Positions 23,048-56,773 of a DNA stretch of 64,000 bases are shown in pieces. Each line of letters opens with the position of its first letter. Position 1 is the stretch's first letter. The DNA lies in the NCBI RefSeq assembly GCF_022179465.1, contig NZ_BPQV01000003.1, positions 372,001 to 436,000 of the forward strand, written 5' to 3'. Origin of the DNA: Methylobacterium organophilum (GTDB taxonomy: Bacteria > Pseudomonadota > Alphaproteobacteria > Rhizobiales > Beijerinckiaceae). Under the pieces are notes generated by a model that did no database searches, was not told the DNA's origin, and saw nothing but the letters and a program-made list of their open reading frames with translations. A program made the position numbers and the translations under genes.

Positions 23048-23491
23048 GACACCGTCGACCCTACGGCGCACCGATCCGCGACGCCAACCACCGGGCGGAA
23101 GGCCTGCCACTTCTCGACCGGCTTGATCCGTACCGACACGGGGGCCGGGCCGTTCAGCCAAGCTGACGCGTCGCCCTTCCCGCGATCCGGCGGGCATAGA
23201 GGAGGCCGCCGGCGCCCGCGTCAGGCGTACGGGACCGCTGCCGACGGCATCCGTGCGAGGCCGCATGCCTGCCCGGCCGCCCCTCAGCGCCGCCGCCATC
23301 GTTCCCGCAATGTTCCCTTTCCGGTCCGGGTGCCCTACCCTCTTGCGACGCGGGCCGGCACCATGCGGAAACGAATCCGTGGACAACGGCCGGAATCGGA
23401 CGTGACGGGCGGGAGAGCCGGAACGTAGACCATGCGTCATGCGGTTGTGGGAGGCGGCGGAGCCGGCGTCGCCGCGGGGACAGGACCGAGG
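23048..23491. other. Non-coding stretch upstream of the defence block
   Basis: 444 bp without a convincing gene on either strand. It must hold the promoter for the dGTPase and, on the other strand, for the 63-residue protein. No clear -35/-10 pair or dyad stands out. An in-frame ATG at 23432 would extend the dGTPase by 20 Gly/Ala-rich residues and is less likely. Confidence 0.4.
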
Positions 23492-24937
23492 ATGGGCGAG
23501 CAACTCGACTGGACGGCCCTTCTGAATTCCCGGCGTCGCAAGCCGAGGCCCGGCGGGAAGGCGCACGAACCGAGGCTGGGCGAGGATCGGACCCAGCACG
23601 AACGCGATCACGACCGCATCCTGTTCTCCACCCCGGTGCGGCGCCTCCAGGACAAGACGCAGGTCTTCCCGCTGGAGCGCAACGACAGCGTCCGCACGCG
23701 GCTGACCCACAGCCACGAGGTGGCGAACATGGCGCGGAGCATGGGGACCACCCTGGCCTTCGTCCACGGCGAGGCGCTCGGCTTCCCGGCGTCGGTCGAG
23801 CCCCTGCGCAACGTGCCGGCCCTGCTGGAGGCCATCGGGCTCGCCCACGACCTCGGCAACCCGCCTTTCGGGCACCAGGGCGAGACCGCGATCCAGACCT
23901 GGATGAAGCGTCACGCGACACCCCGTTCGGAGGAGCCGGGCTCCTTCGCGATCTTCGACGCGCCGGGCCTGACCGAGCCGATGCGCCGGGACTTCCTGGC
24001 GTTCGAGGGCAACGCGCAGGCGTTCCGCTTGCTGACCCGGCTGCAGATCCTGAACGACGATTTCGGGCTCAACATGACCTACGCCTTCCTGGCGGCCCTG
24101 ATGAAGTACCCCGTGCCCTCGGACGCGGTCGACAAGTCGTCCCATGCCCGGAAGAAGTTCAACTTCTTCCAGTCCGAGGCCGGCATCGCCGCGGAGGTCT
24201 GGGCGGAGACCGGGCTGCGCCAGGGCGTGCGGCATCCGCTGACCTTCGTGATGGAGGCTTGCGACGACATCGCCTACTCGGTCGTGGACGTCGAGGACGC
24301 CGCCAAGAAGAACCTGATCAACTTCAACGTGCTGACGGCGTGGCTGCGCCACGATGCCTGCGACGACGAGGTCACCCTCGGGGTCTGCGAGCGGGCGGAG
24401 CGCTACCATGCCGACTTCCGCGACGAGGGACTCTCGCCCGGGGAACTCGACGACATCTCGATGCAGATGTTCCGCGTCGACGCCATCGGGACGATGGTCC
24501 GGGCGGCCGTCGGGGCCTTCGTCGCCAACCGGGACGCCATCATGGCCGGCGCGTTCGACAGGGAGTTGATGGCGGCCTCGGACGCCGTCGTGCTGTGGAC
24601 CTCGCTCAAGCGCTTCGCGAAGTTCCACGTCTACCGCCACCGCAGCGTCCTTGAGGTCGAGCTCGCCGGCCACCGCACGCTCCACGAGCTCATGGACATG
24701 TTCTGGACGGCCGTGGTCGAGCGCAAGGACCCGGACGACCTGAGGTCGGATCGCGAGGCCCTGCCGGCCTACGTCTACTCCCGGATCTCGGAGAACTACC
24801 GGCGGGTCGCCGAGGCTCCGGGCAACCGGATGCCGATGCGCTACCGGGAGTTGCAACTCATCACCGACATGATCTCGGGCATGACCGATACCTTCGCGGT
24901 ATCGCTGCGCGACGACCTGGGGCGGCACCATGGCTGA
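23492..24937 (+). CDS. dGTP triphosphohydrolase (HD-domain dGTPase)
   Basis: A 481-residue HD-superfamily enzyme that splits dGTP into deoxyguanosine and triphosphate. Conserved blocks: RRLQDKTQVFPLERNDSVRTRLTHSHEV (His75 region), then AIGLAHDLGNPPFGHQGE with the metal-binding His119-Asp120. RRLQDKTQVF is typical of dGTPases. A ribosome site AGGA lies 8 bp before the ATG. It overlaps the following nucleotidyltransferase-fold gene by 8 bp. dGTPases of this kind are known to protect bacteria from phage by depleting dNTPs, and the genes that follow are defence genes, so a defensive role is likely. Confidence 0.88.
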   Translation: MGEQLDWTALLNSRRRKPRPGGKAHEPRLGEDRTQHERDHDRILFSTPVRRLQDKTQVFPLERNDSVRTRLTHSHEVANMARSMGTTLAFVHGEALGFPASVEPLRNVPALLEAIGLAHDLGNPPFGHQGETAIQTWMKRHATPRSEEPGSFAIFDAPGLTEPMRRDFLAFEGNAQAFRLLTRLQILNDDFGLNMTYAFLAALMKYPVPSDAVDKSSHARKKFNFFQSEAGIAAEVWAETGLRQGVRHPLTFVMEACDDIAYSVVDVEDAAKKNLINFNVLTAWLRHDACDDEVTLGVCERAERYHADFRDEGLSPGELDDISMQMFRVDAIGTMVRAAVGAFVANRDAIMAGAFDRELMAASDAVVLWTSLKRFAKFHVYRHRSVLEVELAGHRTLHELMDMFWTAVVERKDPDDLRSDREALPAYVYSRISENYRRVAEAPGNRMPMRYRELQLITDMISGMTDTFAVSLRDDLGRHHG

Positions 24938-25730
24938 CCCGGGCAGGCGCGCCCGGGACGGGGCCGAGCTGGGCCGGCGGATGCGGGCCTTCCTCGCGGA
25001 CGAGGCCCGTGGCGGCGACGAGATCGCGGACCTGATCGGCCACCTGGGCCAGGCCGGCGAGGTCGCCATCTTCGGGGGCATGCCCCGCGACATCGCCTGG
25101 GGCGGGGCCGACGCGTTCGGGTCGGACGTGGACCTCGTCGTGGACACCGCGCCGGGGCGCCTGGCGGAGCTGCTGCGCGACGGCCGCGCCGTGCGCAACC
25201 GTTTCGGCGGGTACCGGATCGCCGGCCGCCGGCACTCCTACAACGTCTGGGCCCTCCCCTCCACCTGGGCGGTGCGCACCGGCCACGTCCGCGCGACGCG
25301 CCTGGCCGACCTCGTCCACACGACCTTCTTCGACCGGGACGCCGTGCTGTACCTGTGCGGCTGCCACCGGGTTCACCACGGCCCGCGGTTCGCGGCCTGG
25401 CTGGGTCACGGCACGGTCGACATCAACCTGGAGGAAGACCCGAACCCGCGCGGCACGGCGCTCCGGGCGCTGCGCATCCTCCTCGAACCCGGGCAGGCCG
25501 TCGGCCCGAGGCTGGCCGACTACCTGCGCCGGATGGCGACGGCGCCCGGCCACCATCTCGACGCGGATACCGTGTCGCGGCTCGCCGCGGCGGCGAACCT
25601 TGCCGGCGCGCCGTCCCGGCCTGTCGGACCCGTGGCGCAGCGCCGGTGCAGCCCTGCCGAGGGCCGGGCTCGGGCACGGGATTGGCGCGCCGACCCTGCT
25701 GGGCGCAGGGGTGGCCGTGGCGAGCGGTGA
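24930..25730 (+). CDS. Nucleotidyltransferase-fold protein
   Basis: A 266-residue protein. The core AIFGGMPRDIAWGGADAFGSDVDLVV has the GG...SDVD signature of the DNA-polymerase-beta superfamily (Gly49-Gly50; Asp66 and Asp68 as metal ligands), close to the head domain of CCA/poly(A)-polymerase types. The C-terminus from about residue 220 is Arg/Ala-rich and probably disordered. It overlaps the dGTPase by 8 bp and ends 10 bp before the TerB-domain gene, so the five genes are probably one transcript. Target (nucleotide, RNA or protein) unknown. Confidence 0.7.
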   Translation: MADPGRRARDGAELGRRMRAFLADEARGGDEIADLIGHLGQAGEVAIFGGMPRDIAWGGADAFGSDVDLVVDTAPGRLAELLRDGRAVRNRFGGYRIAGRRHSYNVWALPSTWAVRTGHVRATRLADLVHTTFFDRDAVLYLCGCHRVHHGPRFAAWLGHGTVDINLEEDPNPRGTALRALRILLEPGQAVGPRLADYLRRMATAPGHHLDADTVSRLAAAANLAGAPSRPVGPVAQRRCSPAEGRARARDWRADPAGRRGGRGER

Positions 25731-25740
25731 GGCGCGGTCC

Positions 25741-28317
25741 ATGGCAGGGCGCGAACCGGGGGCCGGCCGAGCCCGGGAAGGCCTTCTGTTGCTCGGATCG
25801 GCCGTGGCGCTGGCGGCCGCCGCGATGCAGTTCGTCCAGGTGGGCTGGCCGGCCCTCGTCACGGGCGCGACGGTCCTCCTGGTCGGCTGGATGAGCCTCG
25901 GACGCCGTTCGGGCGACCGCGCGACGGGCGCGGGCGCGACCACGGAAGCCGCGAGCGCGCCGGTCGACCCCGCGCCGTCCACGATCCATGCTCCGCCTGA
26001 CCCGCCTGACCTCGCCATCCCCGCGACCCCCCTGCCCGCCCCGCCCGAGGGACCGCGAGACACGTTCGGTCGACGGCCCCCCGAGGCGGTTGCCTCCGAG
26101 GCGCACGTCGAGCCTGCCTTCACGGTCACGCCCCTACCCGACGATCCCGCGCCCGTGCCGCAACCCTCGCCGGAGGGGCGCGGCAAGCGGGGCCGGTCGG
26201 CGCGCTGGGTCCCTCCCGGCGAACCGGTCGAGATCCAGGGCCTGACGGTGACGGGAGGGCTGATCTACGTCGGCGAGAAGCTCGGGTCGGATCCGTGGCG
26301 CAGGGAGAACTGCCTGATCGATCCCGCGCTTCCCGTGGCGAAGGCGGGGCGGGGCTCGGCGACCGGCCTGACCTACTGGTGCCGGTACGACGGGCTGAAC
26401 CCGGCGGGCCGCCGCGCCTACCTGGACTGGCTGGCCGGGGGGCGCTCCGACCCCGCGGCCAGCATCGCGCTCGTCTTCCTGTACTTCTACGGTCTGGAAT
26501 ACCGGCTGTTCAAGGAAGGGGTCGCGGCCGACGCGCCCGTGCTGGTCGCGGAGGTCGAGCGCCTGCGCGCGATCTACGGGGCGAACAGCTCGTTCCAGGC
26601 CTATGCGCGGAGCTTCGTCGAGGCCGCCCGGCTGTTGGTGCCCGCGGCGGAGGAGCGGCGTCCCGAGCTGAACCTCGACCCGAATTTCTACAGCTACGAA
26701 CTGCCGCTCGCCGTCAGGGTCCATCTCGGCCGGAAGCTGGCCGACGGCCAGCCCCTCGACGCGGACGACGCCCTCCTCTGGCTGGCGGGCCTGCCCGACC
26801 GCGGCTTCCGCACGCCGGTGACGCGATGCCCGGACGAGTTCGCGGCGCTCTGGCGCCTCCGGTTCCCGGCCAAATACCCGAAGGGACTCAAGGTCGGCGC
26901 GCCGAAGGCGCGGATCAAGGCGTCCTATCGAGCCGCCAGTTCGACGTTCCAGGTGGACCTCAAGGCGCCGGGGTCCCTGCCCGATATCGCTGCCGTCTCC
27001 GCCCCCGTGAGGAAGCTCCGCGAGCTCGTCGAGGCCTGCACCGACGAGCTCGATGCGTTCAGCCGCTTCGTCGGCAGGCGCCCGGACGCCCGCGGGAGCG
27101 TGCAGGCGGCCCTGCTCCTGCCGCCGGACCTGGCCTGCGCAGGCGACGCGTGGACGGCCGTCGGCGAGCGCTGCGAGGCCCTGTTCGCCGCCGGAGCGGC
27201 CATGCCGGCCACGTCCCTGCGCCGGCTGCTTGAGGTGATGGAGATCCCGCTGCCGGAGGAAGGCCGCGTGCCGCAGGCCGGCGTGACGCAGCTCTGCCAA
27301 GCGCTCGACCGGGTCGGCATCGGCATCGAACCGGACCGCCGCTACGGGCCGGAACCTCGCGCCGGCGCCTCGGCCTCGGACGCCGATGCGGCGGTCGTCC
27401 TGTTCAAGGGGGCCGCCGGGGCACCGGTCGACGCGACACGCCCCGAGTACCTGGCGCTGCGCGGCGTCATCGAGGCCGCATGCCTCGCCGCGGCGTCGGA
27501 CGGCGCGGTGTCCCAGGGCGCCGCCGACGGGATGCTCGCCGCGATCCGGGGCACCGATACCCTCAGCCTTGCCGAGAAATCCCGCCTGACCGCCTACGCC
27601 CTGTCGATCCACCGCAACCCGCCGAAGCCGCAGGGGATCCTGAGGCGGTTGGCGGGCCGCCCCCTGTCCGAGCGCCAGGCCTGCGCGCGGGCGGCGCTCG
27701 CGGCCGTCATGGCCGGCGGTCAAGCCAAACCCGCGGAGGTGCGGTTCCTCGAACGGTTGCACGCGTTCCTCGCGCTGCCGGCCGACGGGATCTACGCCGC
27801 CCTGCATCGCGGGCCGCTCGGGTCGGCCGCGTCGGCGGAGCCGCGGGGCGCCGACGGGAGCCAACCGCGCGGGGACGTCGGCGACCGCGCTTCCGGGCGC
27901 GTCGTCATCGACGCATCGCGGCTGGAGCGCGTTCGCCGCGAGACGCAGGCGGTCGCAAGCCTGCTCTCGGACATCTTCGTCGAGGACTCGGCGCCCGGGT
28001 CAGGTGCGGGCACGGTTTCGCCGCCGGGTGGCGTCGCCCCGGAAGCGCCCGCGCCGGCACCGGCGGACACGGGCCCGGCCGGGCTCGATCCGGCCCATGC
28101 CGGCCTGCTCGCCGCGGTCGCCGCATCCCCGGACCCGATGCCGCGCGAGGCGTTCGACCGGGCGGCCCGCGCGAACGGCCTGTTTCCCGACGGGGCGCTT
28201 GAGACCATCAACGAATGGGGCTTCGAGCGCTTCGACGAGGCCTTGATCGAGCACGACGACCCGGTCACCATCGCGGCCCACCTTCGCCTCCACCTGCTCC
28301 CCAGCACCACCGCCTAG
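25741..28317 (+). CDS. sngA: TerB-domain protein, Shango SngA-like
   Basis: An 858-residue protein. A hydrophobic N-terminal segment (LLLLGSAVALAAAAM, then WPALVTGATVLLVGW) suggests a membrane anchor, followed by a Pro/Ala-rich linker to about residue 160. The TerB_N region follows (NPAGRRAYLDWLAGGRSDP, FLYFYGLEYRLF), then a central TerB helical region (IEAACLAAASDGAVSQGAADGM) and a TerB_C-type end (FDRAARANGLFPDGALETINEW). The next two genes are a BrxD-like ATPase and an Lhr-like helicase, the three-gene content of the Shango anti-phage system. The ATG at 25741 was chosen because earlier starts overlap the preceding gene. The domain order is recognised from family memory. Confidence 0.78.
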   Translation: MAGREPGAGRAREGLLLLGSAVALAAAAMQFVQVGWPALVTGATVLLVGWMSLGRRSGDRATGAGATTEAASAPVDPAPSTIHAPPDPPDLAIPATPLPAPPEGPRDTFGRRPPEAVASEAHVEPAFTVTPLPDDPAPVPQPSPEGRGKRGRSARWVPPGEPVEIQGLTVTGGLIYVGEKLGSDPWRRENCLIDPALPVAKAGRGSATGLTYWCRYDGLNPAGRRAYLDWLAGGRSDPAASIALVFLYFYGLEYRLFKEGVAADAPVLVAEVERLRAIYGANSSFQAYARSFVEAARLLVPAAEERRPELNLDPNFYSYELPLAVRVHLGRKLADGQPLDADDALLWLAGLPDRGFRTPVTRCPDEFAALWRLRFPAKYPKGLKVGAPKARIKASYRAASSTFQVDLKAPGSLPDIAAVSAPVRKLRELVEACTDELDAFSRFVGRRPDARGSVQAALLLPPDLACAGDAWTAVGERCEALFAAGAAMPATSLRRLLEVMEIPLPEEGRVPQAGVTQLCQALDRVGIGIEPDRRYGPEPRAGASASDADAAVVLFKGAAGAPVDATRPEYLALRGVIEAACLAAASDGAVSQGAADGMLAAIRGTDTLSLAEKSRLTAYALSIHRNPPKPQGILRRLAGRPLSERQACARAALAAVMAGGQAKPAEVRFLERLHAFLALPADGIYAALHRGPLGSAASAEPRGADGSQPRGDVGDRASGRVVIDASRLERVRRETQAVASLLSDIFVEDSAPGSGAGTVSPPGGVAPEAPAPAPADTGPAGLDPAHAGLLAAVAASPDPMPREAFDRAARANGLFPDGALETINEWGFERFDEALIEHDDPVTIAAHLRLHLLPSTTA

Positions 28318-28321
28318 CCCC

Positions 28322-29647
28322 ATGCAGCCAGCCCCGACCATCCGCCCGCGGGACCGTGACGCGATCCTGCAGGCCCTCTCGGCCGGCGTCGTGCCGCGCA
28401 CGGGCCTGCGCCACGTCCAGGTCGGGCGCGCCGCCGAGATCGCCGCCCTGGTGCGCGACATCGACCGCGTCGCCGACGAGGGGTCCTCGATCCGGTTCGT
28501 GATCGGCGAGTACGGGGCCGGGAAGACCTTCTTCCTCAACCTGGTCCGGCTCGTCGCCCTCGAACGCAAGCTCGTCACCGTGCACGCGGACCTCGCGCCG
28601 GACCGCCGCTTGCACGCCAGCGCGGGGCAGGCGCGGGCCCTCTACGCCGAGGCCCTGCGCAACATGGCGACCCGCACCAAGCCGGACGGGGGCGCCCTGG
28701 GCAGCGTCGTCGAGCGCTTCGTCACGGACGCGGTCAAGGAGGCGCAACAGGCCGGCCTGCCCGTCGAGCGGGTCATCGACCGCAGGCTCGCGCCGCTCCA
28801 GGACGAGGTCGGGGGCTACGACTACGCGGTCGTCCTGAAGGCGTACTGGCGCGGGAGCGAGGACGGGAACGAGGCGCTGAAGGCGGCGGCCCTGCGCTGG
28901 CTCCGCGGCGAGTTCTCGACGCGGACCGAGGCCCGGCAGGCGCTGGGCGTGCGGACCATCGTCGACGACGACAACGTCTACGACGCGCTCAAGCTGCTCG
29001 CCGCCTTCGTCCGGCTCGCGGGCTACGGCGGCCTGTTCGTCGTCTTCGACGAGCTGGTCAACCTGTACAAGCTCCAGAGCGCGCAGGCGCGCAACCAGAA
29101 CTTCGAGCAGGTCCTGCGCATCCTCAACGATGTGCTGCAGGGGAACGTGCGCGGGCTCGGCCTGGCCCTGGGCGGCACGCCGGAATTCCTGCTCGACACC
29201 CGCCGCGGGCTGTACAGCTACCAGGCGCTCCAGAGCCGGCTGGCGGAGAATGCCTTCGCGAAGGGCGGCCTGGTCGACCTGTCGGGCCCGGTGATCCGGC
29301 TGCAGAACCTGACCCCGGAGGACATGCTGATCCTGCTGTCGAACATCCGGGCGGTGTTCGCCGGCGGCGACCCCGCCAGGCACCTCGTGCCGGACGAGGC
29401 GCTCGGCGCCTTCATGGGTCACTGCAACGACCGGATCGGCGAGGCCTACTTCCGGACGCCGCGCAACACGATCCGCGCCTTCGTTCAATTGCTTGCCGTC
29501 ATCGAGCAGAACCCCGGCACGGGCTGGAAGGAGCTGCTCGGGCACGTCGAGGTCCGCAGCGACGACCAGGCAGATGACGCCGGGGCGGACGCCGACGTCC
29601 CCTCCAGCCCGGCGCCCGGCGATGAGCTCGTCAGCTTCCGCCTCTGA
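28322..29647 (+). CDS. sngB: DUF2791 (BrxD-like) ATP-binding protein, Shango SngB-like
   Basis: A 441-residue P-loop ATPase. Walker A is GEYGAGKTF (62-70), Walker B is LFVVFDEL (D243-E244), and a downstream block reads PRNTIRAFVQLLA. This matches the BrxD/DUF2791 family found in BREX-type systems and in Shango. It begins 4 bp after the TerB-domain gene and overlaps the helicase gene by 26 bp, so stoichiometric production with both is likely. Predicted to couple nucleotide hydrolysis to DNA surveillance with the helicase. Confidence 0.86.
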   Translation: MQPAPTIRPRDRDAILQALSAGVVPRTGLRHVQVGRAAEIAALVRDIDRVADEGSSIRFVIGEYGAGKTFFLNLVRLVALERKLVTVHADLAPDRRLHASAGQARALYAEALRNMATRTKPDGGALGSVVERFVTDAVKEAQQAGLPVERVIDRRLAPLQDEVGGYDYAVVLKAYWRGSEDGNEALKAAALRWLRGEFSTRTEARQALGVRTIVDDDNVYDALKLLAAFVRLAGYGGLFVVFDELVNLYKLQSAQARNQNFEQVLRILNDVLQGNVRGLGLALGGTPEFLLDTRRGLYSYQALQSRLAENAFAKGGLVDLSGPVIRLQNLTPEDMLILLSNIRAVFAGGDPARHLVPDEALGAFMGHCNDRIGEAYFRTPRNTIRAFVQLLAVIEQNPGTGWKELLGHVEVRSDDQADDAGADADVPSSPAPGDELVSFRL

Positions 29648-31889
29648 GCGGCGCCTCCGCGACGGGGCCTTCGACCGCCTCGCCCCGGAGGTCCGCTCCT
29701 GGATCCGGGAGCAGGGTTGGACGGGGCTGCGGGACATCCAGGCGCGCGCGATCGACGCCGTCCTCGACGGCGGTGACGACGTGTTGGTCGCCGCGGCGAC
29801 GGCGGCCGGCAAGACCGAGGCGGCCTTCCTGCCCATCCTGACCCGGATCGCCGGCCGGGCCGAACCCGGCCTGGCGGTGCTCTACGTGAGCCCCCTGAAG
29901 GCGCTCATCAACGACCAGTTCCAGCGGCTCGACCAGCTCTGCGAGCGGATGGAGATCCCGCTTGTCCGCTGGCACGGGGATGCGCCGCAATCGGCCAAGG
30001 CGCGGATGCTGGCCAAGCCGGCCGGCATCGCCCTGATCACCCCGGAATCCGTCGAGGCCCTGCTGATCCGGCGTCCCGCCGATGCCAGTCGATTGCTGGC
30101 GGCGTTGGATTTCGTGGTCGTCGACGAAGTGCATGCCCTCCTGTCGGGCCCACGGGGGCTCCACCTGGCGTCGCTGCTGAGACGTGTCGAGGCCCTCGGC
30201 GCGCCGGGCAGGACGCGACGGGTCGGCCTGTCGGCCACCATCGGCGACGCCGAGGCTGCGGCGGCCTGGCTTCGCCCGACCGCGCCGGAGCGCGTCCGCC
30301 TGCTCCAGGACGGCGGGGCCGGCCTGGACCTCCAGCTTCGGATCCTCGGCTACCTGGAGCCGCTCGACGCCGACGGCACCGACGGGGCCGAGGCGGAGGG
30401 CGCGGCCGGCGCAGGGCCGGTGCCGGCACTCGACGCGATCACGGACCACCTGTTCGCCTCGCTGAGGGGCAGCAACAACCTGGTCTTCGGCGGCTCCAGG
30501 CGGCTGGTGGAGGCCCTCTCCGACAGGCTGCGGCGCCGGGCCGAACGGGGCGAGGTCCCGAACGAGTTCTTCCCGCACCACGGCAACCTCTCCAAGGAGT
30601 TGCGCGAGGAGCTCGAAAGCCGCCTCAAGGACGCGTCCCTGCCGACCACCGCGGTCTGCACCTCCACCCTGGAACTGGGCATCGACATCGGCTCGGTGCG
30701 GTCCGTCGCCCAGGTCGGCGCGCCCCGCTCGCTGGCGTCGCTGCGGCAGCGCCTGGGCCGGACGGGGCGGCGGCCGGGCGTGCCCGCCATCCTCCGGATC
30801 TACGTCCGCGAGCAGGAGCTCGACACGCGCTCCTCGGTCCTCGACGAGCTTCGCCAGGACGCGGTGCGCGCGGTCGCGGCCATCCGCCTGCTCGCCGCCC
30901 GCTTCGTGGAGCCGCCGCTGGCCAGCGACGCCGCGCTCGCGACCGCCCTGCTGCACCAGGTCCTGTCCGTGATCGCGCAGCGCGGCGGCGCCCGGGCCGA
31001 CGCGCTCCATCGGCTTCTCTGCGGTCCCGGGGTGTTCGCCTCGGTGACGCCGGGCGACTTCGCGGAGCTGCTGCGCGGCGCGGCCCGGACGGGGGTGGGC
31101 CTCATCGAGCAGGCGCCGGACGGCACGCTGCTCCTGGGCGAGCGCGGCGAGCGCCTCGTCCACGCGCGCGAGTTCTACGCCCTGTTCGACAGCGGGGCGG
31201 AGTGGCGCCTGGTCGCCGGGACCCGGGCGCTCGGCACGATCCCGCTCACCAACGCGGTCGCCCAGGGCACCCTGGTCGTCTTCGCCGGGCGCCGCTGGCT
31301 GGTCGAGGAGGTGGACGAGCGGGCCCACGTCCTGCAGGTCTCCGCGCACCGGGGCGGGGTGATCCCGAAGTTCGAGCGGCTGTTCGCCGAGCCCACGCAC
31401 GACCGCCTCCTCGCGGAGATGCGCGGCGTCTTCGAGGCCGACGACGTGCCGGCCTACCTCGACGCGCGGGCCCGCACCTTCCTCGCGGAGGGGCGGTCGG
31501 CCTACCGCCGCCTCGGTCTGGGACGCTCCCGGATGGTGCACACCGGGCGCGACCTTCACCTCTTCGCGTGGCGCGGCAGCGCGACGTGCGACGTCCTGGC
31601 GGTCATCCTGTCGATGCTCGGGTTGCCGGCGGAGCCGCACGACCTTGGCGTCACGCTCCCCGGGGTGAGCCCGGACGACGCCCGAGCGGTCCTGCGCAGG
31701 GTTGCGAGCATGGTGCCGGGCGATTTCGCGGCCGTCGCGGAGTTCGTCGGGACCATCCAGACCGCGAAGTACGACGAGCATGTTCCGGAGACGCTGCTGC
31801 GGCGCTTCTGGGCCCGGCGAAACGAGGGCGTCCTGGCGCGGATGCCGGGCTTGGCCGCCGAGATGCTCGACGGCGTGCCCGAAGCCTGA
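29622..31889 (+). CDS. sngC: Lhr-like DEAD/DEAH helicase (BrxHI-type), Shango SngC-like
   Basis: A 755-residue superfamily 2 helicase. Q-motif region GLRDIQARAI, Walker A TAAGKTEAAF (Lys64), DEVH box at 168-171, GLSATIGD, and motif VI LRQRLGRTGRRPG. The long C-terminal half follows the Lhr pattern (FAGRRWLVEEVDE, RDLHLFAWRGS). The ATG at 29622 lies inside the ATPase gene. The TerB/BrxD/BrxHI trio is the defining content of Shango. The helicase probably acts on phage DNA, but its substrate is unproven. Confidence 0.88.
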   Translation: MSSSASASERRLRDGAFDRLAPEVRSWIREQGWTGLRDIQARAIDAVLDGGDDVLVAAATAAGKTEAAFLPILTRIAGRAEPGLAVLYVSPLKALINDQFQRLDQLCERMEIPLVRWHGDAPQSAKARMLAKPAGIALITPESVEALLIRRPADASRLLAALDFVVVDEVHALLSGPRGLHLASLLRRVEALGAPGRTRRVGLSATIGDAEAAAAWLRPTAPERVRLLQDGGAGLDLQLRILGYLEPLDADGTDGAEAEGAAGAGPVPALDAITDHLFASLRGSNNLVFGGSRRLVEALSDRLRRRAERGEVPNEFFPHHGNLSKELREELESRLKDASLPTTAVCTSTLELGIDIGSVRSVAQVGAPRSLASLRQRLGRTGRRPGVPAILRIYVREQELDTRSSVLDELRQDAVRAVAAIRLLAARFVEPPLASDAALATALLHQVLSVIAQRGGARADALHRLLCGPGVFASVTPGDFAELLRGAARTGVGLIEQAPDGTLLLGERGERLVHAREFYALFDSGAEWRLVAGTRALGTIPLTNAVAQGTLVVFAGRRWLVEEVDERAHVLQVSAHRGGVIPKFERLFAEPTHDRLLAEMRGVFEADDVPAYLDARARTFLAEGRSAYRRLGLGRSRMVHTGRDLHLFAWRGSATCDVLAVILSMLGLPAEPHDLGVTLPGVSPDDARAVLRRVASMVPGDFAAVAEFVGTIQTAKYDEHVPETLLRRFWARRNEGVLARMPGLAAEMLDGVPEA

Positions 31890-32124
31890 CGCCCGGTGAC
31901 GGGCGCGGCCGAGCGGGCCCAGGGGAAGCTGGCGACCCCGAGCGGGCCGCGCTGGGCACGGGCGCGCCGGGAAGAGCGCGCAAGCTCGCGCCCGGGCGCG
32001 GAGCCAAAGCCTCGGCCATCGTCAGGTTCGAGCAGGTTGTGCACGGCTGGGCCGGGGCGACTCGTACGAGCTTGACCGTTTCTTCAGCCTCGCCGGAGAT
32101 GGGTGACGGTCGACGGTCGGGGAA

Positions 32125-34794
32125 ATGATTCGCATGATGGCGCGCCGGACGGTGGTGATCCAAGGCCGCCTCGCCATGTCGGACGGCCGGCTGGCCGCCG
32201 CGCGCCGGTCCGACCATGGCGTCCAGCTCATGCCCGTGGAGCGCATGGTGGCGCGCCTCGCCGGGGGCTTCGCGCGACCGGTCGACGACGAGACGCTCAA
32301 GAGCCTTCTGCCGGCCGCCCTCGCCGAAACGGACCTCGGCGAGCTCGATCCCATCAAGACGCTGCCGGGCATGGTCGACGCCGCCGCCGAGACCGTGCGG
32401 AAGGCGTGGCTGGCCGCCTTCGACCTGGCGCGGTCGGCCGACCCGGCCGACCGGACCGCCTCGGTCCGGCGCCTGGAGGAGGCCGTCCTCGCCCGCCTGC
32501 CGGCCGGGATGATGCGGCCCGTCGACCTCGCCGAGGCCGCGCGGGCGCGTCTCGCCCACGCGCCGCGGGTGCTCGGGCCCGTCGAGATCGTCGGGCTCCC
32601 GGACGTGCCGCCGTGCTGGCGCGGCCTCGTCGCATCCCTGGTCGCGCACGTTCCCGTGACCTGGGTGGCGGGGCCGCGCTCCGTCCCGGATTGGGTGGAG
32701 GCGGCCGGCATCCGCGTCGTCACGTGCGCGCCGGAACGGCCGGCGGTCGCGGTCTGCAGCGCGGCGACCCCGAGGCACGAGGTCCTGGAGGCGCTGCGCT
32801 GGGCCCGCGAGCTGATGGCGTCCGGGCAGGCCGCGCCCGCGGACATCGCGGTCGCGGCCTGCCGCACCGAGGAGTACGACGACGTCGTGCTCGCGCTCCG
32901 GGCGGAGGCGAACCTCGACGTGCGCTTCGTCCACGGGGTGCCCGCCGCCAGCGTCCGCGAGGGGCAGGCCGCGGCCGCCCTCGCCGACGTCCTGGTCAGG
33001 GGGATCTCGCAGGACGGCGTCCGCCGCTTGGCGGCCCTCCTGCGCGACGGCCCCGGTCCCTTCGCCGCGTTGCCCGAGCGATGGACCCGCGTCCTTCCGC
33101 GCGAGGCGCCGCTGACCGACCCGACGGCCTGGGAACGGCTGCTGAACAGCCTCCGGGCAGAGGATTTCCCGGACGGGCAGGACCACGTCCCGGCGCTGCG
33201 GGACGTCGTGGGCGTGCTCGTGCAGGGCGTGTCGGTCGCGGCGGAGGCGGGAGAGCGCTTCCTGCACGGCCTGGCGCTCCGGATCTGGCGCAAGGCCTTG
33301 ATCGAGGGGGCGCCGGCCGTCGTCGACCTGACGCTGGGACGCCTGCGCATCGACGACGGGGCGGACGCCTGCGCCTCGGTCGTCTGGGCCCCCGCCTCGG
33401 CGCTGGCCGCCGCCCCGCGGCGCTTCGTGCGCCTGCTCGGGCTGAGCTCGCGCGGCTGGCCGCAGGTCAGCGCGGAAGATCGGCTGCTGTCGGACCATCT
33501 CGTGCCGTCCCGTCTTCTCGACCCCTTCCCCAGGCCGCTGGCCGACAGGAGCGACTTCCGCGCGATTCTGGCCACCAGCGCCGGGGCCGTCGTGCTGTCC
33601 CGGCCGCGGCGCGGCCCCGACGGGCGCCTGCTCGGGAGGAGCCCGCTGCTGCGCGAGTTCGGCGCGGCCGAGACCTACCTGGGGCGCAACCGCGTCCCGG
33701 CCCACGCCGTGGGCGAGGTCGACCGACTCATGGCCCGGCCGGCGGAGTTCCGCGCGACGGCCCCGGCCATCTGCGCGGCGGGCTGCTGGCGGGCCTGGGG
33801 CCGGGCGGAGCTGACCGCGCACGACGGGCGCGTCCGGCCGGACCACCCGGTCGTGCTCGCGATCCTGGATCGCACCCATTCCGCCCGGTCGCTGCGCAAG
33901 CTCCTGCGCGACCCGCTGGGCTTCGTCTGGACCTACGGGCTCGGCCTGGAGACGGCCGACGCGGCCGCGGAGCCGCTCACGCTCGGTCATCAGGCCTTCG
34001 GCAACCTCCTGCACGAGGTGCTCGAACGCGCGGTGGTCGCCCTGGAGGCGGATGGCGGCTTCGCCCCGTCGACGGACGCGGGCAAGCGCCGGGCGCTGGC
34101 CGCGGTCCTCGCCACCGTCGCCGAGGTCTGGGAGCGCGAGCGCCCGATCCCGCCGCGGCTGATCTGGCGGCGGACCCTGGACGAGACGGCCGCGCTCGCC
34201 CTGGCCGCGCTCACCCACCCCGACCAGCCTCTCCTCGGGCAGGGAAGCTGGGTCGAGGTCCCGTTCGGCGGGCAGCCGCCGAAGCGCGACCACCACCCCC
34301 TCCCCTGGGACAGCGACGCCACGGTCACGATACCCGGCACCGGTTTCCGGATCTCCGGCTACATCGACCGGCTCGACCTGTCGCACGACCGCGGCAGCGC
34401 GCGGGTGCGCGACTACAAGACCGGCAAGCCCCGCGAGGCGGGGACGGTCCTCGACGGCGGCCGCGAACTGCAGCGGTGCCTGTACGGCTACGCCACCCGC
34501 GTGCTCCTCGGCGCGGACGTGTCGATCGATGCCTCGCTGCACTTCCCGCGGGAATCCCTGTGCCTCCGGCTCGAACGGCCGGACGAGGCCCTCGACGAGC
34601 TGGCCACGTATCTCGTCGCGGCCGGCGCGAGCCTGCGGGCCGGCAACGCCTTCGCCGGCCCCGATGCCCGGGATGCCTGGAACGACCTGGCCTTCGCGCT
34701 GCCGGCGAACGCCGACAAGACCTACTGCCCGCGCAAGCACGACCTGGTGACGACGGCGCTCGGCGAGGCCGCCCGCGTCTGGGAGGCCGCCTGA
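32125..34794 (+). CDS. AddB-like PD-(D/E)XK nuclease / inactivated helicase subunit
   Basis: An 889-residue protein. The N-terminal two thirds have a UvrD-like fold pattern without a recognisable Walker A motif, as in AddB-type subunits. The C-terminal nuclease domain has GYIDRLDL (D748) and DYKTGK (D763, K765), the RecB/AddB nuclease signature. The four-cysteine iron-sulfur cluster of classical AddB is not evident. Its stop overlaps the start of the AddA-like gene (TGATG). It starts 235 bp after the helicase gene in the same direction. It could be the local AddAB repair enzyme or a nuclease arm of the defence block; location favours the latter. Confidence 0.8.
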   Translation: MIRMMARRTVVIQGRLAMSDGRLAAARRSDHGVQLMPVERMVARLAGGFARPVDDETLKSLLPAALAETDLGELDPIKTLPGMVDAAAETVRKAWLAAFDLARSADPADRTASVRRLEEAVLARLPAGMMRPVDLAEAARARLAHAPRVLGPVEIVGLPDVPPCWRGLVASLVAHVPVTWVAGPRSVPDWVEAAGIRVVTCAPERPAVAVCSAATPRHEVLEALRWARELMASGQAAPADIAVAACRTEEYDDVVLALRAEANLDVRFVHGVPAASVREGQAAAALADVLVRGISQDGVRRLAALLRDGPGPFAALPERWTRVLPREAPLTDPTAWERLLNSLRAEDFPDGQDHVPALRDVVGVLVQGVSVAAEAGERFLHGLALRIWRKALIEGAPAVVDLTLGRLRIDDGADACASVVWAPASALAAAPRRFVRLLGLSSRGWPQVSAEDRLLSDHLVPSRLLDPFPRPLADRSDFRAILATSAGAVVLSRPRRGPDGRLLGRSPLLREFGAAETYLGRNRVPAHAVGEVDRLMARPAEFRATAPAICAAGCWRAWGRAELTAHDGRVRPDHPVVLAILDRTHSARSLRKLLRDPLGFVWTYGLGLETADAAAEPLTLGHQAFGNLLHEVLERAVVALEADGGFAPSTDAGKRRALAAVLATVAEVWERERPIPPRLIWRRTLDETAALALAALTHPDQPLLGQGSWVEVPFGGQPPKRDHHPLPWDSDATVTIPGTGFRISGYIDRLDLSHDRGSARVRDYKTGKPREAGTVLDGGRELQRCLYGYATRVLLGADVSIDASLHFPRESLCLRLERPDEALDELATYLVAAGASLRAGNAFAGPDARDAWNDLAFALPANADKTYCPRKHDLVTTALGEAARVWEAA

Positions 34795-37700
34795 TGACCG
34801 CCCACGACCGGGGCCTCGCCGACGCGGCCCAGCGCGCGCTCGCCATGACCGCCCACGACAGGTCGCTGCTCGTGGAGGCCGGGGCCGGATCCGGGAAGAC
34901 GGCGCTGATGGCCGGCCGCATCGCCATGATGCTGGCCGCGGGCGTCGCCCCCGGATCCATCGCGGCGGTCACCTTCACGGAACTCGCCGCCAGCGAGCTG
35001 CTGGAGCGCGTCGGCGAGGTCGTCGGCCGGCTGGTCGAGGGGCAGGTCCCGGAGGAGCTGCGGGTCGTCCTCCCGAACGGGTTGTCTCCGGATCAGCGAG
35101 CCCGGCTGGTCGAGGCCGGCGAGCATCTCGACGCGCTGGCCTGCACCACCATCCACGGGTTCTGCCAGCGCCTGGTCAAGCCCTACCCGGTCGAGGCCGA
35201 CATCGACCCGGGCGCCCGGGTCGCCGACGAGGCGGAGGCGGACGGCATCTTCCAGGATCTGCGCGACGGCTGGCTCCGCGAGTGCCTCTCCGGCGGCGGC
35301 GGCCTTGTCGCGGAGATGGTGCTGGCCGACCCGGACGCGGCCCTGGCGGCCATCGACCGCGTGGCCGGCTGCCTGCGCGAGGGGCGCGCGGTGGGCACCG
35401 CGCCGGCGGAACCCCTTCCCGACCTGGTGCGGGCCTTCGGCGCCAGCGTGCAGGCCTTCGCGGACTTCCAGCGGAGCTGCGGGGTTTCCGAGGGTGAGAC
35501 CGCCGCGAACGTGCGGGCGTTCCAGGCGATGGCCGCGCGGCTGCCGGACACCGGCGTCGCCGACGCCGACCTCGTCGCCATCCTGACGGCGGCGGCGGAG
35601 GCGAGCCTGTGCAAGGCGGACGGCGACTTCGCGAAGTACCGCGGGGGCAAAGGCAAGTGGGCCGGCGCCGCCAAGCTGGTCGGCCTTCCGAAGACGGAGG
35701 CCGACCGGCTCCAGGCGTCGGCCGAGCGCCTGCACGTCGCGTGCTGCGAGGCTTGGCGCCGGCTGAAGGCCAACGCCGCGAGCGAACTCCTGGCCAGGCT
35801 CGTCGGAACGGTGCGGACCGTTCTCGACCGGTACCAGGCCCGAAAGCGCGACGGCGCCCTGCTCGATTTCGACGACCTGATCGCCGCGGCCGCCACGCTG
35901 CTCCGCGCGCACGAGACCGTGCGGCAGGCGCTGGGGCGCCGCTACCGCCACGTCCTGGTCGACGAGTTCCAGGACACGGACCCGATTCAGACGGAGATCC
36001 TCTGGCGGCTGTGCGGCGAGCTGCCCGACGGCGCGGCCGACGCGTGGACGGAACGCGTGCTGCGGCCGGGCGCGCTGTTCCTGGTCGGCGATCCGAAGCA
36101 GGCGATCTACCGCTTCCGCGGGGCGGACGTGTCGACCTACGTCCGGGCGCGCGACCGCATCCTCGCGCGCTCGCCCGACGACGTCCTCGCGATCTCGACG
36201 AACTTCCGGTCCTGCCGCTCGATCCTCGCCTACGTGGACGAACGCTTCGGCGACATCCTGAACGGGGTCGGGCAACCCGGGTTCGCGGCGCTCGACGCCT
36301 TCCATCCCGACCACGACCGCGGACCCTGCATCGCGGCGCTCGACGTGCCGGCCGGTGCCGACGGGGCGAAGCGGACCGCGGAGGCGCTGCGCGACGCCGA
36401 GGCGGAAGCGGTCGCGGACCTTTGCGCGCGCCTGATCGGGCACCAGCTCGTGACCTGCAAGCGCGCGGGCACCCGCACGCTCCGGGCCGGCGACATCGCG
36501 CTGCTGGCACCGAGCGGGAGCGACCTCTGGCGGTACGAGGAGGCGCTTGAGGCCAGGGGCATCCCCGTCTCGACCCAGGCCGGCAAGGGCTTCTTCCGGC
36601 GGCAGGAGGTGCATGACCTGATCGCGCTGACGCGGGTGCTCGCCGACCCGCGCGACACGCTCGCGCTCGGGGCCCTGCTGCGGGGGCCGGCCGTCGGCCT
36701 GACCGACGAGGAGTTGCTCGACCTCGTCGACGGACTGCCGCGCGACCCGGAGCGCCCGGAGAGCGTCCCCAGGCTGCGCCTGCACGTCGATGTCGCGCAC
36801 GTGAACCATCCGGTGGCCCGGCCGGTGCTGGAACGGTTGCAGGCCCTGGCGAAGCGGGCGCTCGGCACGACACCGCACGACATCCTCAGCCAAGCCGTCG
36901 ACGCGCTCATGCTGCGCCCGGTGGTGCAGCAGCGTCACGACGGCCACGCCGAGAGGGCGCTGGCCAACATCGACCTGTTCCTGGAAATGTCGCGCCCGTT
37001 CGCCGTGCGCGGCCTGCGGGCCTTCGCGGGGGCGATGAGGGCGGCCTGGGAGGGCCGGACGCGCACGGTCGAGGGCCGGCCGGACGCGCAGGAGGCCGCG
37101 GTCTCCTTGCTCACCATGCACGCGTCCAAGGGGCTCGAATGGCCCGTCGTGATCCCGATCAACACCACCACCCGGACCAAGGCCGTCTCCGGAGCCCTGG
37201 TCGACCGCGCCTCGAACTGTCTCTACTGCCCGGTCTTCGGGGTGCGCCCGGCCGGTTACGACGAGGCGCTGGAGGCCGAGAAGCGCGAGGTCGGGAACGA
37301 GCGGGTCCGCCTCTGGTACGTGGCGGCGACGCGGGCCCGCGAGACGCTGGTGCTCACGCGGTTCGCCGAGCCGGGCGCCAGCACGTCCTGGTCGGCGGTG
37401 GTCGACCTCGGGCTGGCGGATTTGCCGTCCATCGACGTGGAGCGGCTGCCGGTCGGGACGCCGGCCGTCGCGCCGGAATTCGCGAACGGTCAGACACGGG
37501 AAATCTTCGCCGCCGAGGCCGCCGCCGTCGCCCGGCAGCGCCGCTTGCGCTGGATCGTCCCCAGCCGCGGCGATGCGGCGGGTCCCGAGACGTCCGGCGC
37601 CCCCGGCCTGGTCGAGGGCGGTACCGACGGCGGGCGCGGACCCGGGGGACGGCCGACAGGCAGCCGGGAGCGCGGCATCCTCATCCACAAGCTGCTGGAG

Positions 37701-38168
37701 GAGATCCTCACGGGCGAGGCGAGCGAAGGCGACGATCTCGGACGGCGCGCCGGGCTCCTCGCCCGGCAGCTCGGTCTCGGAACCGGCGACGCTGCCGGGG
37801 CCGAGGTCGACCTGGCCGAGGTCGCGGCCAGCGTGACCCGGGCGCTCGGCCTTCCCGAGATCGCCGGGATCCGCGAGCGCCTCCAGGCCGAGTTGCCCGT
37901 GTTCGGGTTCGAGAGCCTCGCCGACGAGGACCAGGCGACGGCGGGCGTGGTGGACGCGATTGCCTGCGACGCGGTCGGCAAGCCGGACATCGTGGTGGAC
38001 TGGAAAAGCGACGTGGATCCTGCGGAGGCGGTCCTCGCCGACTACCGGCGTCAGGTGGCCCGATACCTTCTCGCGACGGGCGCGCGCCTCGGCCTGATCG
38101 TCTTCGTGACGAGCGGCCGGGTCGTCCCGGTGACCCGCGCCGCGATGGCCGACGTCGGGGCTGGATGA
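34794..38168 (+). CDS. AddA-like UvrD helicase-nuclease
   Basis: A 1124-residue superfamily 1 helicase. Walker A is GAGSGKT (30-36), the motif I-II region includes VTFTELAASEL, and the Walker B block is DEFQDTD (390-396). Motif V-VI is recognisable as LLTMHASKGLEWPVV and WYVAATRARETLVL. The C-terminal nuclease has VDAIACD and the catalytic VDWKSD (D1069, K1071). This is the AddA/RecB architecture: translocation plus end resection. Coupled to the AddB-like gene by a one-base overlap. The reading frame is open far upstream, but that part is shadow inside the AddB-like gene. Confidence 0.86.
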   Translation: MTAHDRGLADAAQRALAMTAHDRSLLVEAGAGSGKTALMAGRIAMMLAAGVAPGSIAAVTFTELAASELLERVGEVVGRLVEGQVPEELRVVLPNGLSPDQRARLVEAGEHLDALACTTIHGFCQRLVKPYPVEADIDPGARVADEAEADGIFQDLRDGWLRECLSGGGGLVAEMVLADPDAALAAIDRVAGCLREGRAVGTAPAEPLPDLVRAFGASVQAFADFQRSCGVSEGETAANVRAFQAMAARLPDTGVADADLVAILTAAAEASLCKADGDFAKYRGGKGKWAGAAKLVGLPKTEADRLQASAERLHVACCEAWRRLKANAASELLARLVGTVRTVLDRYQARKRDGALLDFDDLIAAAATLLRAHETVRQALGRRYRHVLVDEFQDTDPIQTEILWRLCGELPDGAADAWTERVLRPGALFLVGDPKQAIYRFRGADVSTYVRARDRILARSPDDVLAISTNFRSCRSILAYVDERFGDILNGVGQPGFAALDAFHPDHDRGPCIAALDVPAGADGAKRTAEALRDAEAEAVADLCARLIGHQLVTCKRAGTRTLRAGDIALLAPSGSDLWRYEEALEARGIPVSTQAGKGFFRRQEVHDLIALTRVLADPRDTLALGALLRGPAVGLTDEELLDLVDGLPRDPERPESVPRLRLHVDVAHVNHPVARPVLERLQALAKRALGTTPHDILSQAVDALMLRPVVQQRHDGHAERALANIDLFLEMSRPFAVRGLRAFAGAMRAAWEGRTRTVEGRPDAQEAAVSLLTMHASKGLEWPVVIPINTTTRTKAVSGALVDRASNCLYCPVFGVRPAGYDEALEAEKREVGNERVRLWYVAATRARETLVLTRFAEPGASTSWSAVVDLGLADLPSIDVERLPVGTPAVAPEFANGQTREIFAAEAAAVARQRRLRWIVPSRGDAAGPETSGAPGLVEGGTDGGRGPGGRPTGSRERGILIHKLLEEILTGEASEGDDLGRRAGLLARQLGLGTGDAAGAEVDLAEVAASVTRALGLPEIAGIRERLQAELPVFGFESLADEDQATAGVVDAIACDAVGKPDIVVDWKSDVDPAEAVLADYRRQVARYLLATGARLGLIVFVTSGRVVPVTRAAMADVGAG

Positions 38169-56246: not shown

Positions 56247-56773
56247 GGCGCATCCACCAGGATGCGCGCCACGTCGGAAGCGCTCGCGGCGCCCAGGAAG
56301 GCGGCCACCGCGGCGTCCGGAACGTCGCTCAACCGCGACCGCAGACGGGCGCGGTAGTCGGCGCCGCCGATCACGGGCGCGCTGAGAACCGGCAGGAGGG
56401 GCAACAACGTCCTTCGCAGGTCGGCCGCCGTGCGCAGGTCGCCGCGCGCGATCTTGCGGGTCATGGAGAAGTTCTCCTCGATCCGCTCGATCTGCCGCGC
56501 GAGGCCGGGTTCGGCACCGCCGGCCAGGAACAAGGCGTAGACGTTCCAGGCCTTGGCGCCCGCGGACCGCAGCGAGGCCGCATGTCGGCCGAGCGTGGCC
56601 TGCTGGACCTGCCGCCAGTCGGCGAGCAGGCTCTCGCCGCTCCCGAAGACGTGCAGGAAGCCGGCGACGGACGCATTCTCGAAGCAGACGACCGGCACGC
56701 TGCCGCCCGGCCAGGTCCAAGTCTCGTAGCCGGCCGAGCGGAGCAGCACCTCGGATTGGGTCGCGATGTCCAT
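56243..56773 (-). CDS. ABC-3C middle component-like protein
   Basis: A 176-residue mixed alpha/beta protein: GYETWTWPGGSVPVVCFENASVAGFLHVF, then a long helical part (FSMTRKIARGDLRTAADLRRTLL). The predicted layout resembles the small middle component 1 of ABC three-component systems, and it sits exactly where that component belongs, between effector and ATPase genes. Overlaps by 1 bp with the SIR2 gene and 4 bp with the ATPase gene. The homology call is from memory of the family layout, not a search. Confidence 0.68.
   Translation of the reverse strand: MDIATQSEVLLRSAGYETWTWPGGSVPVVCFENASVAGFLHVFGSGESLLADWRQVQQATLGRHAASLRSAGAKAWNVYALFLAGGAEPGLARQIERIEENFSMTRKIARGDLRTAADLRRTLLPLLPVLSAPVIGGADYRARLRSRLSDVPDAAVAAFLGAASASDVARILVDAP

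Follow-up and report, generated by a model that had tools for sequence, protein, structure and literature searches.

The Shango defence system is reportedly treated in a 2022 study by Millman and colleagues, and a 2012 study of Ter systems by Anantharaman and colleagues is said to be relevant to it; to our knowledge, the way in which Shango stops phages has no known mechanism. The three-gene Shango of PA14 protects against several phages, according to the available portion of Johnson et al. (2023, PMC10250203). Clover, as described by Yamaguchi et al. (2025, PMC12265719), is a two-gene operon of a dGTPase, CloA, and a nucleotidyltransferase, CloB. In this study, we analysed a 64,000-nucleotide stretch of Methylobacterium organophilum DNA (hereafter the window; contig C3:372001-436000 of a 5.06 Mb genome), in which seven plus-strand open reading frames (ORFs) occupying positions 23492-38168 combine a Clover pair, a Shango trio and an AddB/AddA-like pair (hereafter AddBA). 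We estimate at roughly 60% the probability that this locus is a three-module defence stack, with Clover, Shango and AddBA as an effector pair, on a recently transferred island. Clover and Shango are already known, and AddBA as a recurring companion is the new part.

On the basis of profile matches, the middle trio is assigned to Shango. PADLOC identified SngA (E 2.6e-82), SngB (6.4e-174) and SngC (4.3e-242) in order, in agreement with the Shango-like core proposed in an initial annotation of the window, whose seven genes were all recovered as ORFs in the order that it gave. The Shango model was preferred over BrxD for SngB (4.8e-48 for BrxD) and over BrxHI for SngC (804 versus 401 bits); the name Lhr, which the same annotation had used for the helicase, was rejected, since SngC scores highest. 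In Pfam, TerB_N and TerB_C were matched in SngA, the BrxC/D ATPase family in SngB (505.8 bits) and a DEAD helicase in SngC, while the central TerB match in SngA (17.3 bits) remained under the cut-off of 24.4; two hydrophobic N-terminal stretches in SngA were judged by eye and not computed. The trio is therefore like described Shango in its TerB protein, BrxD-like ATPase and DEAD helicase, in the same order and with strong PADLOC matches, and differs in that an AddB/AddA-like pair follows it and a Clover operon ends 10 bp before it.

The last two genes, as judged by family models and motifs, are a divergent accessory AddB/AddA-like pair, and the AddAB-like character that had been proposed for them was borne out by the UvrD and PDDEXK_1 matches. 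The AddB-like protein matched PDDEXK_1 (1e-19), with D748, D763, K765 and Q783 invariant among 15 rows, and the AddA-like protein retained K35, D390-E391, D1054, D1069, K1071 and Q1087 in all 14 rows, so that the helicase motifs and both nuclease active-site motifs are intact. At E 0.01, neither NCBIfam nor PADLOC 2.0.0 offered a model match for the AddB-like protein. With the alphaproteobacterial AddA model TIGR02784, the AddA-like protein scored 288.0 bits, far under the cut-off of 860.75 for a canonical AddA, and its best solved relative was AddA 3u44 (3.8e-37). When compared with the rest of the genome, the pair proved not to be the only AddAB of the host, a candidate explanation that was rejected because a canonical AddA lies on another contig of the genome (1141 bits versus 285 for the window copy). 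Canonical AddB carries an Fe-S cluster with four cysteines; no cysteine was invariant among the 15 AddB-like rows, C554 being nearly so. The pair thus shares with AddAB and RecBCD a UvrD-type helicase bearing a C-terminal RecB-type nuclease and a PD-(D/E)XK nuclease partner, and departs from them in the low AddA score, in the lack of an invariant cysteine in AddB and in being a second copy. It also recalls Gabija through its UvrD helicase (PADLOC GajB, 2.9e-37); however, the AddA-like protein is about twice the length of the GajB models and has its own nuclease domain, and its partner is a RecB-type nuclease and not the OLD nuclease that constitutes the GajA-type partner. The AddBA pair is uncommon, occurring in 10 of 385 genomes of the class.

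The association of AddBA with Shango was evaluated in 120 related genomes. SngB was found in 15 of them, 13 with strong matches (G432 and G436, with weak SngB at E about 1e-4, were dropped), and AddB in eight; in all eight, AddB lies directly behind SngC on the same strand. The hypergeometric probability of AddB falling within the 13 strong SngB genomes is 1.5e-9, or 1.8e-5 with five island copies counted once, the cut at 13 having been chosen after the list was viewed. Plasmids gave a comparable picture, as SngB and AddB stand side by side, in that same order, in eight records among the best 60 of 694 SngB records and 60 of 64 AddB records, and the SngC-AddB gap is 2 bp in the Rhodobacterales plasmids of Phaeobacter, Paracoccus and Roseovarius. 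In an AddB tree of 23 rows, Shango-linked AddB occurs in three places with 4 label changes (9 of 500 shuffles were as low), so that the Shango link was gained or lost several times. This tree did not include G437, L010, L022, L024, L135 or additional copies of the window island, and G452, G394, G454 and G434, which overlap with L027, L026, L028 and L029, were not counted twice as independent. The Shango-AddAB link is not described in the open literature searched, mostly titles and the beginnings of abstracts, and the available portions of the EVE, YprA, conserved-domain, Hachiman and ApsAB papers make no mention of it.

Other AddBA neighbourhoods were compared in 17 hand-picked plasmid AddB loci, which therefore do not sample plasmids fairly: Shango adjoins the pair in five, another recognisable defence operon does so in six, and six are without assignment (AbiE-like genes in two; the AM1 record is unannotated). 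The partners include a DUF6361-phospholipase D-helicase operon in L044, named Azaca ZacA-C by PADLOC, with the same content by annotation in L043 and partly in L132; multiubiquitin-ThiF genes on the other side of AddBA in L044 and L132; type III restriction-modification in L133 and L134; and E1-E2 genes with Mov34 in L047. ZacA and ZacB follow AddBA in L018, as does ZacA in L019, and a divergent HmaA stands one gene away in L017. This recurring order with Shango, together with the varied partners, suggests that AddBA may be a mobile DNA-degrading add-on for bacterial immunity. As separate observations on Shango loci, addB of G437 (L107:6532-9168) is broken by an in-frame stop, and the slot behind SngC in G449 (L106:11733-17217) holds a protein with RNase_H_2 and an SF1-like helicase, then a Sacsin-domain ATPase.

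The first two genes, which had been noted as a dGTPase and nucleotidyltransferase pair, correspond by sequence to the CloA/CloB pair of Clover. Family models identified CloA as a dGTPase (PADLOC E 3.8e-75; TIGR01353 312.6 bits), and its best Protein Data Bank (PDB) matches were the eight-chain dNTP triphosphohydrolases 9p8s-9p8v (best E 1.4e-126; E. coli Dgt 8.2e-51), with 47.9% identity to the 9p8s chain, Salmonella CloA. The available portion of the Clover preprint prints the structure codes 8P9S-8P9V, in addition to 9P8W for the Shewanella enzyme (PMC12265719); we read the former as printing errors for 9P8S-9P8V, given that the residue numbering used there agrees with the 9p8s chain at 38 of the 39 sites checked (site 377 differs).

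Conservation of functional sites was compared with the housekeeping-type dGTPase of the same genome and with a control enzyme of G815 (34% identical). The catalytic HD motif and HE dyad (H69, H117, D118, H126, E129, D242) are kept at 6/6 positions, which is not discriminating, as the housekeeping-type enzyme and the G815 enzyme likewise keep 6/6. The regulatory and substrate sites separated the three proteins: dGTP-site residues, judged by those of the 9p8s chain itself, are 7/7 in CloA, 3/7 in the housekeeping-type enzyme and 6/7 in G815; residues binding the inhibitor p3diT are 9/10, 5/10 and 7/10; those binding the activator dTTP are 7/9, 4/9 and 4/9; and switch residues are 6/7, 3/7 and 4/7, respectively. 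The dTTP-site changes in CloA are Y452 to Phe and A444, a main-chain contact, to Met. A housekeeping role for this dGTPase was rejected on the basis of this site test and the three dGTPases in the genome. The window copy is in effect already published, as the Fig. 1a legend in the available part of the Clover paper names Methylobacterium symbioticum SB0023/3 as a representative neighbourhood (PMC12265719) and L026, which derives from that strain, matches the window at 99.9%; the words Shango and TerB are absent from the text of that paper, figure excluded. Therefore, the window copy resembles described Clover in its two-gene composition and in the retention of the catalytic, dGTP, p3diT and most dTTP contacts, and differs in that Shango follows directly, in the single open frame that joins cloB and sngA in the relative G402, and in one residue of CloB. 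Separately, a solo CloA at L069:8772-10217 has Tyr at the first position of the HD motif and is probably inactive.

For CloB, no family match exceeded its cut-off (PolyA_pol, 13.2 bits versus 23), and a PDB search gave matches only at E 0.26 or worse. The protein nevertheless aligns on GG-x-x-RD and SDVD with 13 other rows, nucleotidyltransferases beside such dGTPases; several of these rows are near-copies of one another, including four near-identical island copies. Although the DxD motif is present in the window protein, residue 105 (codon 25242-25244) is Asn, whereas it is Asp in 13/13 other rows, and this position is presumed to be the third acidic active-site residue. Asn105 could be either a real change or a sequencing error. 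In the E. coli Clover operon, mutation of the nucleotidyltransferase active site has a fitness cost of more than 10,000-fold, according to the available portion of the Clover paper (PMC12265719). A second Clover copy on contig C1 of the same genome encodes a CloB that retains Asp, and this protein might supply the signal in the window strain. A dGTPase/nucleotidyltransferase pair, with motifs judged by eye, also occurs in G546, a member of another class. Scans of viral contigs with CloB, the AddB alignment and P0001, which depend on short exact peptide patterns, returned no relatives.

Similarity to the solo Clover copy on C1 stops at 25548, and similarity to the Shango locus of CM4 begins at 25809 (blastn); therefore, the Clover-Shango joint lies in the CloB tail and the linker. 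The diverged locus of G402 contains all seven genes, with identities to the window of 89% for CloA, 74% for CloB, 68% for SngA, 97% for SngB, 90% for SngC, 84% for AddB and 84-87% for AddA. There, cloB and sngA form one open frame of 1114 codons, whereas they lie in different frames in the window; this is an open frame only and does not prove a real fusion, as conservation of the tail is poor and stops are scarce in GC-rich sequence. CloB was found in 9 of the 120 related genomes at 12 loci; seven of these have no Shango nearby, while it adjoins the other five, namely four copies of the island plus G402. The Clover pair occurs without Shango nearby on Phaeobacter plasmids as well. Conversely, SngABC-AddBA without Clover was found, in the sequence compared, in CM4, M. 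rhodinum, G437, G451, G288, Polymorphobacter and the three Rhodobacterales plasmids, with little sequence upstream of sngA for G437 and G288 and with Paracoccus and Roseovarius judged by annotation. The full set is present in two lineages only, the window type and G402, both Methylobacterium. Hence, the co-occurrence anticipated for the whole locus held for Shango and AddBA, in fixed order across several lineages, and did not extend to Clover, whose linkage to Shango is the weaker of the two. Elsewhere, Clover adjoins DUF5131 (Gp37/Gp68-like) and TcmP-like genes (L070:8480-12635 and L051:11944-16231; G427 of the same genus and Phaeobacter), the TcmP assignment in L070 being by eye.

As judged by nucleotide identity, the island is a large segment of metal-handling and defence genes that passed between species very recently. 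G452 matches the entire window at 99.96-100% in blocks, and the portions compared of G454 (60 kb) and G394 (48.7 kb) match at 99.8-100% and 99.93-99.97%, respectively. All seven genes are found at >=99.9% DNA identity in M. podarium, M. symbioticum, M. rhodesianum and M. hispanicum, and M. zatmanii has sngA (cut by the contig end) through addA at 99.87%. The other genes of the island look like metal and sulfur handling, with names given by eye. Substitution ratios place the seven genes under purifying selection: dN/dS against G402 is 0.07-0.43 with dS 0.19-0.45 (220 codons for CloB and 408 for AddA), and for the five genes shared with CM4 it is 0.16-0.40. In the window type, G402 and CM4, addB is preceded by a 20-base element with a CTTGAC core, whose first base lies 58 bases ahead of the gene; when up to 4 mismatches were allowed, the other loci compared did not contain it, a hint that addBA has its own promoter. 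A promoter and terminator scan gave no site of either kind, shuffles giving 0.2 and 3.9.

Gene identities, intact motifs, recurring order and purifying selection are drawn from the sequences themselves, and from the named families we infer the biochemical steps, co-expression and module cooperation of the three-module stack as follows. CloA would be restrained by p3diT from CloB, and a phage-driven rise in dTTP would activate it, leading to dGTP depletion. The TerB protein of Shango, probably membrane-linked, would act with the BrxD-like ATPase and the BrxHI-like helicase on phage DNA near the membrane, and AddBA, as a dual-nuclease helicase, would enter at the DNA ends so exposed and degrade both strands, which would make its attachment to helicase-bearing systems understandable. 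AddBA would thus be the DNA-destroying effector behind Shango in this lineage, attached to other defence systems elsewhere and probably also driven by its own promoter. Shango is probably co-expressed with Clover, since Clover ends 10 bp before SngA and the two form one open frame in a relative.

Several points weigh against this reading. Five of the 13 related genomes with strong SngB lack AddB; four of them have no such helicase-nuclease in their ORF calls, and G449 has the RNase_H_2 and SF1-like helicase protein in the slot. In the class sample, five of the eight genomes with strong AddB (G004, G060, G066, G175, G271) lack SngB, the Shango link being confined to the own genome of the window and G288, while G065 has both genes on different contigs; G051, G148, G034, G313 (weak SngB), G366 (fragment AddB) and G329 (weak AddB) were left out of these counts. 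AM1 has AddBA without Shango in the 22 kb compared, one gene or ORF stands between SngC and AddB in Polymorphobacter (DUF4268) and M. rhodinum (an unplaced ORF), and the tested PA14 Shango has three genes without AddBA, as far as the available portion of its description goes. Within the window, the 235-bp gap and the conserved element inside it suggest that AddBA is expressed separately, the alteration of CloB at a position invariant in 13 other rows may leave the Clover brake impaired in this strain, and Clover and Shango may have been joined only once. Furthermore, defence genes cluster in islands, and neighbourhood alone is no proof of cooperation.

A plain defence island of three independent systems, with AddBA as a stand-alone anti-phage or anti-plasmid nuclease landing beside any defence operon, is possible, although we are doubtful of it. 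Each of the three modules is also found on its own, AddBA stands next to a number of unrelated systems, and one further plasmid, from Mesorhizobium, carries SngB and AddB about 195 kb apart. However, in every case where SngABC and AddBA were no more than a few kb apart, the two shared a strand and AddB followed SngC downstream, across several families and with 2-bp gaps in the three Rhodobacterales plasmids; a gene or ORF intervenes in two cases. AddBA is unlikely to be an enzyme of repair or plasmid maintenance that has no part in defence. The pair is of the AddAB/RecBCD kind, and of the 64 AddB-bearing plasmid records, 40 are typed conjugative; nevertheless, its distribution in the class is patchy, the window genome has a canonical AddA, and 11 of the 17 hand-chosen plasmid loci have an adjoining recognisable defence operon. 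Least probable is the single extended seven-gene system put forward in the initial annotation, in which a membrane-linked core directs a helicase-nuclease and dGTP depletion is triggered together with it: genes overlap, cloB and sngA share a frame in G402 and all seven genes are conserved with dN/dS <0.45, but each module occurs apart, several SngABC-AddBA loci lack Clover in the sequence compared, seven other Clover loci have no Shango nearby, and the full set is confined to two lineages of one genus.

If, as the three-module stack holds, an AddAB-like enzyme is the DNA-destroying partner of Shango, this would offer a direct, testable route to the Shango mechanism. A pair moving among Shango, Azaca, Hma and restriction-modification would represent an effector common to them, one that libraries for detecting defence systems may overlook, and the Clover-Shango junction would tie a nucleotide-pool sensor to a DNA-acting system. 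A more far-reaching proposal, which we advance tentatively, is that alphaproteobacterial Shango has a dedicated but exchangeable slot for a helicase-nuclease effector behind sngC, mostly filled by a previously undescribed AddBA-like pair that also serves Azaca, Hma, restriction-modification and ubiquitin-like systems as a plug-in module for DNA destruction in prokaryotic immunity, and that Clover in Methylobacterium is wired onto the same transcript, with CloB fused to SngA in one lineage, such that nucleotide signalling and DNA attack might respond together.

The features of the locus are listed in the table. The junction gaps from cloA through addA are, in order, -8, 10, 4, -26, 235 and -1 bp; the tiny gaps or overlaps initially described thus apply to five junctions (-26 to 10 bp), SngC-AddB being the sole exception among the six. 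A codon-usage gene call recovered all seven genes, with the SngA start at 25804 instead of 25741; as its model was trained initially on eight window genes including these seven, this call is not independent evidence.

Table. Features of the Clover-Shango-AddBA locus, in window coordinates.
Feature	Position	Strand	Evidence
Upstream conserved stretch, 5' end of the Clover cassette	23299..23491	+	blastn similarity to second Clover copy and G402 starts at 23299
cloA, putative dGTPase effector of Clover	23492..24937	+	PDB 9p8s-9p8v matches, 47.9% identity, site conservation
cloB, putative Clover nucleotidyltransferase (Pol-beta type by motif)	24930..25730	+	14-row alignment; weak PolyA_pol head match
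Clover-Shango joint	25548..25809	+	blastn similarity limits
sngA, TerB_N / TerB / TerB_C protein	25741..28317	+	PADLOC SngA; Pfam TerB_N, TerB_C
sngB, BrxC/BrxD-type ATPase	28322..29647	+	PADLOC SngB
sngC, SF2 DEAD-type helicase	29622..31889	+	PADLOC SngC
Conserved 20-base element, CTTGAC core, candidate promoter part	32067..32086	+	Shared position in the window-type, G402 and CM4 loci
addB-like, PD-(D/E)XK nuclease	32125..34794	+	PDDEXK_1 1e-19; invariant motif residues
addA-like, UvrD-type helicase with C-terminal RecB-type nuclease	34794..38168	+	Pfam UvrD; TIGR02784; invariant motif residues

In a repeat search, a single repeat with two copies was found, along with two imperfect inverted pairs. 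At positions 54183-57975 on the minus strand of the window, three overlapping genes encode an SMC/LmuB-like ATPase (PADLOC 4.8e-31), a 177-aa protein with no family assignment and a product that matches SIR2_2 weakly (22.7 bits, under the cut-off of 24.5); together they may form another defence cassette of this island.

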